DNA of 64,000 nucleotides from Jeotgalibaca porci (lineage in GTDB: Bacteria > Bacillota > Bacilli > Lactobacillales > Aerococcaceae): contig NZ_CP049889.1 of the NCBI RefSeq assembly GCF_011299095.1, positions 1,468,501 through 1,532,500 of the forward strand, written 5' to 3'. Both the position numbers and the translations under genes were made by a program. The notes beneath the pieces are model-generated. The model ran no database searches. It saw only the letters and a program-made list of their open reading frames with translations, and was not told the origin of the DNA. Shown here in pieces: positions 50,115 to 52,138 of this stretch; the stretch's first letter is position 1; each line of letters begins with the position of its first letter.

Positions 50115-50163
50115 AAAAAAGGAAGAGGTCCGGGAGTTATTTCCCCGATCCCTTCCTTTTTTT
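50115..50163. terminator. Bidirectional terminator
   Basis: AAAAAAGGAAG and the complementary CTTCCTTTTTTT flank an inner, partly paired region. It overlaps the last two bases of the crp/fnr-like gene. Confidence 0.8.
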
Positions 50164-50839
50164 ACCCGAGTAACAATTCATCGGCATCCATAATCGCAAT
50201 CTCTCTGTTCGAAATGTGTCGAATTAAACCGCGGTCTTCCATTGCCCCAAGTTTTCGACTGATTGTTTCAGGTGTTGTCCCCAAGAATGAAGCTAAATCT
50301 TTTTTAGTCATCGGTAACGTAGCAATGTTTGAACCTTCTTCCAACAATTCCACGAGGAACATCGCTAAACGATTTTCCACTTTTTCAGTTGCGACAAGTG
50401 TTGTCTGACGTTCAGATTGTTCCAAACGATTGGAAAATTCCGCTAATATTTTCAATGAAATAGCAGGATAAGTGGCCAACAAAGGCTGTAAATCATCTTT
50501 GGTGATAACGCAAACAGCCGTATCGCGCGTCGCTTCTGCGAACGAATCATGAAGCGAAGAGCGGAATAAAGCCATTTCTCCGGTGAAGTCGCCAGGTCCC
50601 AGAAAGCGAACTAACTGTTCTTTACCGTTTTCTGTCAAACGATAAATCCGCACAAATCCTTTATGCACAATATATAAAGAATCGGATTCATCCAGAGGCT
50701 GATAAAGGCGTTCACCTTTTTTAAAGCGTCGGGTGTGAGCAGTTGCTGAAATTTCGTCCATTTGTTCTTTTTCTAAGTGGTTGAAGATCGGTACAAGCGA
50801 GACACACGAATGAACGTGGTCGCGTGAATGTTTAGACAC
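50162..50839 (-). CDS. Crp/Fnr family transcriptional regulator
   Basis: 225 residues: an N-terminal cyclic-nucleotide-binding-like beta-barrel (about 15-130) and a C-terminal winged helix (TKKDLASFLGTTPETISRKLGAM). The N-terminus has SCVSLVPIFNHL, as in Fnr-like proteins of Lactobacillales, but not a full set of four cysteines, so a standard Fnr [4Fe-4S] cluster is not expected. GTG 50839 is chosen since AAGGAG lies 8 bases upstream and overlaps the earlier GTG. It may control the DUF1858-DUF438 genes 2.5 kb away. Confidence 0.85.
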   Translation of the reverse strand: MSKHSRDHVHSCVSLVPIFNHLEKEQMDEISATAHTRRFKKGERLYQPLDESDSLYIVHKGFVRIYRLTENGKEQLVRFLGPGDFTGEMALFRSSLHDSFAEATRDTAVCVITKDDLQPLLATYPAISLKILAEFSNRLEQSERQTTLVATEKVENRLAMFLVELLEEGSNIATLPMTKKDLASFLGTTPETISRKLGAMEDRGLIRHISNREIAIMDADELLLG

Positions 50840-50861
50840 CTTATTCACTCCTTAAGTGATT

Positions 50862-51182
50862 TCAATTTAGTTTAACGGCGGTTCCACTGCAAGTCACCAT
50901 AATCATACCGTTATCCGCACCAAGAGTTTCATAATCCATCTTTACACCGATAACGGCGTCTGCACCTAAATCAAGGGCACGACTCTCCATTTCAGTTAGA
51001 GCTTGTTCACGCGCCATAACGATTTCTTCCTCGTAACCTTGCGAGCGGCCACCAAAAAAGTTCCGCATCCCTGCACCGATATCTTTCATAAAATTAATTC
51101 CGGAAATAACTTCGCCAAAAACAACATCTTCATAGGATACGATTGTTCTACCTTCAATACTATTTGTAGTTGTGATAATCAT
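50862..51182 (-). CDS. YbjQ/UPF0145 family protein
   Basis: 106-residue heavy-metal-binding-like domain, UPF0145/YbjQ. Typical are [25 protein letters not shown] at the start, [21 protein letters not shown] and VTCSGTAV near the end. The family forms pentameric rings; the role is unknown. It lies 22 bases upstream of the crp/fnr gene on the same strand. Its start is 76 bases from the LexA-like box of the divergent gene. Confidence 0.9.
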
Positions 51183-51247
51183 ACGAACGCCTCCTTAAAT
51201 TTGGTTGAATCTGTTAAAATTATACCATATCCTTTCTAGTTGTTCGC

Positions 51248-51277
51248 TTGACAAGCGTGAACGTATGTTCGTATAAT
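51248..51277 (+). promoter_or_regulatory. Promoter with LexA (SOS) box between -35 and -10
   Basis: TTGACA (51248-51253), 18 bases, TATAAT (51272-51277). TGAACGTATGTTCG at 51258-51271 matches the Gram-positive LexA box CGAAC-N4-GTTCG at 9 of 10 fixed positions and fills the spacer. Confidence 0.85.
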
Positions 51278-51303
51278 GAGAACGAAGAAATGAGGTGCGG
51301 AAA

Positions 51304-51540
51304 ATGGAAGGGAAATGGTGTTTGCAAGGGAAGGTCGAAAAAATAAAAGTTTTGAAACTGGAAGAGATGCCGCTTGTGCGGTTCACATTGACAGATGAAC
51401 GTGAGACAAGAGAGAATTGTCTCATCAAAAACCATTCACTCAATTTCCTTTTCCAGGTCACCGAGGGTAAATCGATTGTCATTTATGGCAAACGCAATAA
51501 TCATAATCAATTCGTGGTACACAAATATCATGTGAACTGA
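51304..51540 (+). CDS. Small SOS-controlled protein, possible OB fold
   Basis: 78-residue protein behind a near-consensus promoter that carries a LexA box. The pattern of strands (WCLQGKVEKIKVLK, VRFTLTD, SIVIYGKR, FVVHKYHVN) resembles a single-stranded nucleic-acid-binding OB fold, like a short PriB/SSB-type protein; this is inferred from pattern only. ATG 51304 follows GAGGTG. The NUDIX gene begins 15 bases after its stop and is likely co-induced by DNA damage. Confidence 0.7.
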   Translation: MEGKWCLQGKVEKIKVLKLEEMPLVRFTLTDERETRENCLIKNHSLNFLFQVTEGKSIVIYGKRNNHNQFVVHKYHVN

Positions 51541-51555
51541 AGGAGTCGGGAGACA

Positions 51556-52122
51556 ATGAATTATCGCCAGGAAATAATGGATTTTGAACCTTACAACGAA
51601 CAGGAAAGAACAGATAAAGCCCGCATGCTCGAATACATCGATGTAGTGCAAGATATTTTAATCCGTGACAGTACCGCTGCTCACTTCACAGCGTCTGCTT
51701 GGATTGTAAACGAAGACTATACAAAAACAGTGATGGTCTATCATAATATCTACGATTCTTGGGCTTGGACGGGTGGACACGTTGACGGGGACAGTAACTT
51801 CTTACGGGTCGCTTTGAAGGAAGCCGAAGAAGAAACAGGTCTGAAGGATTTAACGCCTGTGTCGGAAGAAATTTATGGCCTGGAAATACTCGAAGTTCCC
51901 GCCCATATGAAAAATGGGCAACATATCCGTCCGCACTTACACTTAAACGTGACATACTTATTGCAGGCGTCAGAATCGGGTGCATTAACGATTAAACCGG
52001 ACGAAAATAGTGCGGTCGCTTGGATGGCGTTGGCTGAAGCAGTAGCTAAAACATCTGAATCGGAAATGAAGCCGATTTATCAGAAATTAAACGATAAATT
52101 ACCAAAAAACGGGCAATCTTAA
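51556..52122 (+). CDS. NUDIX hydrolase
   Basis: 188-residue NUDIX protein. The NUDIX helix is GGHVDGDSNFLRVALKEAEEETGL (split: GGHVDGDSNFLR and VALKEAEEETGL), a slightly relaxed form of GX5EX7REUXEEXGU with Asp for the first Glu and Lys for Arg. The Glu residues for metal binding are kept. It may clear damaged nucleotides, matching its place behind an SOS-controlled gene. Its stop overlaps the convergent DUF438 gene by 4 bases. Confidence 0.85.
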   Translation: MNYRQEIMDFEPYNEQERTDKARMLEYIDVVQDILIRDSTAAHFTASAWIVNEDYTKTVMVYHNIYDSWAWTGGHVDGDSNFLRVALKEAEEETGLKDLTPVSEEIYGLEILEVPAHMKNGQHIRPHLHLNVTYLLQASESGALTIKPDENSAVAWMALAEAVAKTSESEMKPIYQKLNDKLPKNGQS

Positions 52123-52138
52123 TCGATTGTCCGTTTTT
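52104..52138. terminator. Bidirectional terminator inside both gene ends
   Basis: AAAAACGGGCAATC pairs with GATTGTCCGTTTTT. It spans the overlapping stop codons of the NUDIX and DUF438 genes. Confidence 0.85.

Follow-up and report, generated by a model that had tools for sequence, protein, structure and literature searches.

SSB ends in an acidic C-terminal tip, and its partners are normally recruited through this acidic tail. PriB replaces or modulates SSB locally in restart, and OB folds in general often bind proteins and can also bind RNA. Among the closest described SOS systems, the YolD/UmuC-type gram-positive counterpart of Pol V (YqjX-YqjW, UvrX) is described as comprising a polymerase, a YolD homologue and RecA, and the part of that text searched contains neither OB fold nor SSB (PMC6511836). 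A survey of SOS components mentions YolD and, in its accessible portion, not OB fold, SSB or Nudix (PMC3765255), and a regulon reconstruction for lactic acid bacteria predicted 13 LexA operons in Lactobacillaceae, with the OB gene considered below unnamed in the portion available (PMC3616900). PrgE of pCF10, an atypical OB-fold, SSB-like protein found only in Enterococci and their relatives within Lactobacillales, resembles the protein studied here in being an odd OB protein within the same order; it differs in having been studied in plasmid conjugation, with LexA unmentioned in the accessible part of that report (PMC11137577). None of the titles and abstract beginnings found names the OB family, in a literature coverage to which subscription papers mostly do not belong.

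The window analysed here is a 64,000-nucleotide stretch of the 2.35-Mb genome of Jeotgalibaca porci. In it, two genes, ORF1 and ORF2, follow a promoter whose spacer holds a LexA-type operator (Table 1). The operator, the promoter, the gene order, their conservation and the OB fold of the first product are computationally supported. The first-pass annotation had read a LexA box in the spacer of a near-consensus promoter, and the sequence at 51248-51277 agrees: both hexamers are perfect and the 14-mer adjoins the -10. The hairpin behind ORF2 is absent from the output of a simple terminator scan.

Table 1. Features of the ORF1-ORF2 operon, in window coordinates
Feature	Position	Strand	Basis
-35 hexamer TTGACA	51248..51253	+	with -10, 12/12 consensus match, 18-nt spacer
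LexA-type operator TGAACGTATGTTCG (14-mer), fills spacer, touches -10	51258..51271	+	sequence, homologue promoter layout
-10 hexamer TATAAT	51272..51277	+	promoter match
ORF1 ribosome-binding site GAGGTG	51292..51297	+	read from sequence
ORF1, 78 aa from ATG, single-domain predicted OB fold of SSB/PriB structural type, phrog_15227	51304..51540	+	
ORF2 ribosome-binding site AGGAG, inside 15-nt intergenic gap	51541..51545	+	read from sequence
ORF2, 188-aa NUDIX hydrolase, second gene of the operon	51556..52122	+	PF00293; 3fcm relative
Probable bidirectional terminator hairpin, 14 pairs, -18.2 kcal/mol, z -6.9	52105..52138	.	faces convergent gene

Immediately 5' of the -35 lies GTTCGC (51242-51247), which resembles the right half of a LexA box. 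The same hexamer occurs 6-18 bp upstream of the box in 13 of 54 box-bearing homologue promoters, and it may be a second half-site or reflect shared ancestry. Further upstream, the opposite strand encodes a Crp/Fnr-type regulator and a YbjQ-family protein (50162-51182).

The 14-mer by itself is not beyond chance. For CGAACN4GTTCG with one mismatch, 1.83 sites are expected per window; for CGAACRNRYGTTCG with two mismatches, 9.63 sites are expected in the window and 9 were found. Across the host genome the exact core GAACN4GTTC is not enriched, with 18 occurrences compared to 26 for the reversed control pattern. A chance palindrome was accordingly the first reading considered, as no excess of sites is seen in either the window or the genome.

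What makes the site significant is where it lies in the promoter, together with its conservation across homologues. A set of 100 loci was assembled from 61 loci of a search of genomes of the order and 56 named loci after exact copies had been removed; wider flanks were drawn for 60 of the 93 order-genome matches plus the window's own locus, leaving aside the 30 weakest matches and a further two that lie on short contigs. Of 99 ORF1 homologues, 33 have the exact core in the 100 bp before the gene, and 48 of 98 have it in the 450 bp before it, counts that miss some boxes since start codons were set by rule (that of locus L108 is too early); three control patterns gave 0-2, and other genes of the same loci 0 of 617. 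As the 100 loci retain near-identical copies, counting was done by clusters of less than 80% identity. By this measure an exact box lies in the operon lead of 33 of 64 clusters and of 0 of 547 control windows, so that the conservation upstream of homologues on which the first-pass annotation had staked its LexA box is indeed found. With up to one mismatch the counts are 53 of 64 and 16 of 547; a cluster could draw on more than one upstream window per locus and a control gene on a single one, which favours the family somewhat, mostly in the one-mismatch count. The remaining 11 of the 64 clusters have no box in the operon lead even with one mismatch allowed, and in a clade of six uvrC-linked loci the 450 bp upstream contain neither an exact nor a one-mismatch site.

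The geometry of these promoters is fixed. The exact box was found in 51 distinct homologue promoters. In 50 of them the -10 directly adjoins it, the exception having a gap of one base; 45 have both hexamers (≤1 mismatch each) in place, compared to 5% of shuffled flanks. Conservation across clusters together with this geometry led us to reject the chance palindrome, which, for all the unremarkable site counts given above, we now regard as a very remote explanation of the site.

The host genome encodes LexA (PF01726, E = 7.7e-22; TIGR00498 lexA, 212 bits against a cut-off of 111), and a similar box, CGAACGTTTGTTTG, lies 59 bp upstream of lexA itself in a promoter whose layout differs from that of the window. 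Boxes were also found upstream of sbcD, a Y-family polymerase gene (umuC-type) and two yolD-like gene fragments; lexA, sbcD and the polymerase were identified by domain and family profiles and the yolD-like fragments by BLASTP. The polymerase gene and one of the fragments (L047) share the -35/box/-10 layout of the ORF1 promoter, the box touching the -10. At sbcD, TATAAT starts one base past the box and no clear -35 is seen; at the other fragment (L034), TATAAT overlaps the last base of the box. Beyond this genome, LexA scores above cut-off in 77 of the 78 genomes that carry the OB gene, the exception being an 89%-complete assembly. The LexA-type control proposed at the outset is thus carried by a conserved layout, by a lexA with its own box and by the similar Y-family polymerase promoter. 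This is evidence computed from layout, from which LexA would very probably be the regulator of the operon.

The two yolD-like ORFs behind host boxes are partial: L034 (C1:127865) has no start, and L047 (C1:2056391) matches over 17-30 residues near its end. Two further LexA-like boxes, 28 bp apart (C1:420032 and 420060; L036/L180), lie 5' of genes that by eye resemble those of a V-type ATPase.

The product of ORF1 almost certainly adopts an OB fold, as judged from its predicted structure. The AlphaFold2 model (48 sequences; pLDDT 92, pTM 0.80) has its elements in the order b-b-b-a-b-b, which is the OB topology. Foldseek matched it to the OB domain of a lysyl-tRNA synthetase, the match of lowest E-value, and to trypanosome editosome proteins, PriB and SSBs (E = 2e-4 to 1e-3). 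A second structure aligner returned SSB, PriB, mitochondrial SSB and editosome proteins with 74-78 residues aligned, and nearly all of the 50 matches listed are SSB, PriB or mitochondrial SSB chains. The model superposes on B. subtilis SsbA over its full length (Z = 12.5, rmsd 1.9, 78 aligned) and on E. coli PriB over 77 residues (Z = 12.1). The first-pass annotation had noticed an OB-like strand pattern in this 78-residue protein and suggested comparison with PriB and SSB; the predicted fold bears this out, with Z of about 12 to both.

By sequence the relationship is fainter. ORF1 itself gives nothing above cut-off in Pfam or NCBIfam (the best Pfam models being CcmE at 0.026 and an OB domain at 0.042) and no match to the Pfam SSB model PF00436 up to E = 1, whereas that model matches 9 of 58 aligned family members at E ≤ 0.5 (best 2.6e-5). 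Profile-profile comparison of the ORF1 family with SSB gave E = 1.6e-4 and a probability of 51%. When the family profile was searched against solved chains, no chain was retrieved up to E = 10; this holds for PriB, whose likeness to ORF1, that of a single tail-less OB of similar size, lies in the fold, and the empty search likewise sets ORF1 apart from PrgE. In PHROGs, ORF1 matches phrog_15227 (E = 1.7e-9), labelled as of unknown function, as do 39 of the 58 members at E ≤ 0.001. PADLOC, which covers anti-phage defence, has no match for ORF1 or ORF2.

The 58 aligned members are short (75-123 aa), and the predicted pI is above 7 in every one. Residue 15 is Lys or Arg in all 58, Asn65 is invariant, Gln69 is present in 57, and residue 67 is Lys or Arg in 97% and His in the window protein; the most conserved positions include the polar Asn65 and Gln69 alongside residues of buried type. 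Asn65 to Gln69 fall between strands 4 and 5 of the model, a hairpin that we take to correspond to the ssDNA-contacting hairpin of SSB. Bacterial SSB (B. subtilis SsbA and SsbB) shares the OB topology and the full-length superposition with ORF1, but an acidic tip of SSB type is found at none of the 58 C-termini, and ORF1 ends with its last strand. Taken together, fold and charge suggest that ORF1 probably binds ssDNA.

Among the genomes sampled from the order, an ORF1 homologue is present in 78 of 295, spread over 34 of the 74 genera. All five matches in a class-wide sample of 398 genomes, a number of them not stated lying outside the order, fall within the order too. The top full-length named match is from J. 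caeni (68%), followed by Trichococcus (64-67%). Within 3 kb and on the same strand, the neighbours at the 100 loci include a yolD-like gene (19 loci), a gene of ~105 aa (15), DUF5960 (6), uvrC (6), a umuC-type gene (5), NUDIX (3) and DUF7694 (3). The gene order box-umuC-yolD-OB occurs at two loci and box-OB-yolD-umuC at one. Profile searches confirm Y-family polymerase domains and UvrC among the neighbour genes. The yolD-like proteins resemble one another by BLASTP, and none of the five sent to the Pfam YolD model PF08863 (L086, L063, L092, L034 and L047) matches it. On the family tree, the uvrC-linked OB proteins form one supported clade with a fixed, boxless arrangement; for the yolD-like link, supported branches force at least five changes, on a tree with few columns and many open forks.

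These neighbours admit a reading in which the OB protein does not itself bind ssDNA and acts as a protein-protein adaptor of the UmuC-type polymerase or its YolD-like partner, of RecA or of UvrC. The recurrence of yolD-like, umuC-type and uvrC genes, the repeated changes in the yolD-like link, the general readiness of OB folds to bind proteins and the polar character of Asn65 and Gln69 among the most conserved residues all speak for it. The structure matches, nearly all SSB, PriB and mitochondrial SSB among the 50 listed, and the uniformly basic members argue the other way, as do the low counts of umuC-type (5 of 100) and uvrC (6 of 100) genes within 3 kb on the same strand; we consider the adaptor role possible, if on the unlikely side. 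The same size, tail-less single OB and Z of about 12 to PriB structures would also suit a restart factor active in SOS, by which helicase-loading proteins are loaded or bridged at stalled forks. Yet PriB and SSB score alike, so that the fold fails to separate them, and no primosomal protein was recognised by eye among neighbour clusters of at least three proteins, which makes this role improbable.

In the reading that we favour, and consider the most likely, the OB protein is a factor of SSB/PriB type without a tail, induced in SOS and serving repair or translesion synthesis, and a NUDIX hydrolase was recruited next to it in one genus. Since the OB gene often stands beside YolD/UmuC-type genes, a more specific form can be put forward tentatively: the OB protein might be an unrecognised ssDNA-binding subunit of a gram-positive Pol V-like machine consisting of UmuC-type polymerase, YolD-like protein and OB protein, and might also serve UvrC-dependent repair. 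It would then be a stripped-down SSB, made only in SOS, that readies gapped DNA for the error-prone polymerase; this is a speculative step, and so is a direct partnership with the UmuC-type polymerase, which we hold to be somewhat doubtful. The streptococcal hdiR-umuC cassette may also hold a relative of the ORF1 family.

Besides chromosomes, the OB gene is found on 62 viral contigs and in 8 plasmid and 8 phage records, one phage being represented by two of the latter. The phage records include EG-TP1 and TMW 1.1365 P3, both from induced lysogens. In Enterococcus phage EG-TP1 (PQ571292.1), gp32 is an ORF1 homologue (54.5% over 71%); its record gives the product as hypothetical protein and, without citing an experiment, refers in a note to the alignment of its structure with a predicted protein that bears the name SsDNA-binding protein. 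Two genes 5' of it lies gp30, annotated in its record as an RNA polymerase subunit; by BLASTP it is yolD-like, and its match to PF08863 (E = 0.002) stays below the cut-off. Enough upstream sequence (at least 320 nt) was available for 48 distinct viral loci, and 20 of these show an exact box within 620 bp; the control pattern gave 0. The boxed viral loci, the 62 contigs and the two lysogen phages would agree with a prophage accessory gene, timed by SOS and serving the phage (for example in ssDNA protection), of which the chromosomal copies are relics. Against such an origin, no phage gene was recognised by eye among the larger ORFs of the window between 47 and 56 kb, and the uvrC-linked proteins form one clade in a fixed arrangement; we regard it as improbable.

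The second gene of the operon is, as first annotated, a NUDIX hydrolase: ORF2 matches PF00293 at 41.3 bits (cut-off 21.1; E = 1.9e-10). It is related over residues 1-184 to PDB 3fcm (E = 3.4e-55), which is named only as a NUDIX-family hydrolase and for which no SOS link was seen. In its NUDIX motif, GGHVDGDSNFLRVALKEAEEETGL, the E..EE part is kept and the Glu position of Gx5E is occupied by Ser (GGHVDGDS...). In homologues this position holds Glu, Ala, Thr or others, and the residue before it is mostly Asp, Glu or Asn.

All six genomes of the genus that were searched contain the NUDIX gene, and three contain the OB gene. An exact box stands ahead of the NUDIX operon in five of the six, two of them without an OB gene. 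The order box-OB-NUDIX is found in the window genome and in G214. In G655 a gene of 105 aa intervenes (box-OB-105aa-NUDIX), an order that the named J. caeni locus L117 shows in its entirety; the OB proteins of the two have identical first residues, and they are probably of the same species. G654 has box-105aa-NUDIX with no OB gene, and in G229, also lacking the OB gene, NUDIX directly follows the box and a 12/12 promoter. At locus L236 the box lies at 860, the 105-aa gene starts at 1169 and the NUDIX match begins at 1501. The sixth genome (G266) has neither box nor OB gene at its NUDIX gene.

Outside the genus the picture changes. NUDIX homologues (E ≤ 1e-25) are present in 42 of the 295 order genomes, 4 of them in the genus, and none of the 26 out-of-genus homologues read (of 38 matches) has an exact box within 500 bp; in three, a one-mismatch site lies at a distance of 261-418 bp. 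On this count we rejected the idea that OB and NUDIX form a conserved pair. The first-pass annotation had proposed the two genes as a new damage-response unit; box plus OB gene is the conserved part of that unit, whereas the NUDIX gene belongs to it at the level of the genus. From these gene orders the NUDIX gene seems to have been brought under LexA in the lineage of the genus and retained there while its neighbours changed; we take this as the strongest sign of a functional pairing in the genus, and equally as a sign against a general one.

The ~105-aa family (including L117:6263-6568, L270 and loci of Trichococcus and Carnobacterium) recurs downstream of LexA boxes, whether or not the OB gene is present. 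In G168 its gene stands directly behind an exact box (L270) on a different contig from the OB gene, and for this reason we consider it a third candidate SOS gene. The protein has no Pfam match, and its model (7 sequences; pLDDT 72) matches no solved fold convincingly among the folds listed, the best Foldseek E-value being 0.18 and the best Z 5.5.

We hypothesize the following course of events. LexA bound in the promoter spacer, a position given by the computed layout, would block RNA polymerase. Self-cleavage of LexA stimulated by RecA is established, and upon DNA damage it would free the near-perfect and very strong promoter, from which ORF1 and ORF2 would be expressed as one damage-induced transcript. 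The basic, tail-less single OB protein would most likely bind ssDNA, or repair machinery already bound to ssDNA, and might act at gaps in repair or translesion synthesis. Because it has no tail, recruitment of the partners of SSB would not be expected, so that it may replace or modulate SSB locally. The NUDIX enzyme would presumably hydrolyse a damaged or surplus nucleotide arising from damage or repair.

If true, an SSB-like protein without a tail, made only in SOS and recurring with YolD-like, UmuC-type and UvrC genes, would fill a gap in the picture of gram-positive mutagenesis and repair, and it would also bear on the means with which prophages provide themselves when induced. A simple sequence rule for finding more SOS genes in the order, among them several small genes with no assigned function, follows from the fixed -35/LexA box/-10 cassette.

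In the viral contigs, 73 stretches have the exact promoter cassette at one of two spacings and 11 have it at the other (L336-L416). Fourteen of the 81 first genes behind these viral cassettes are labelled OB, yolD-like or umuC-type, and the remaining 67, unlabelled, fall partly into recurring small families.
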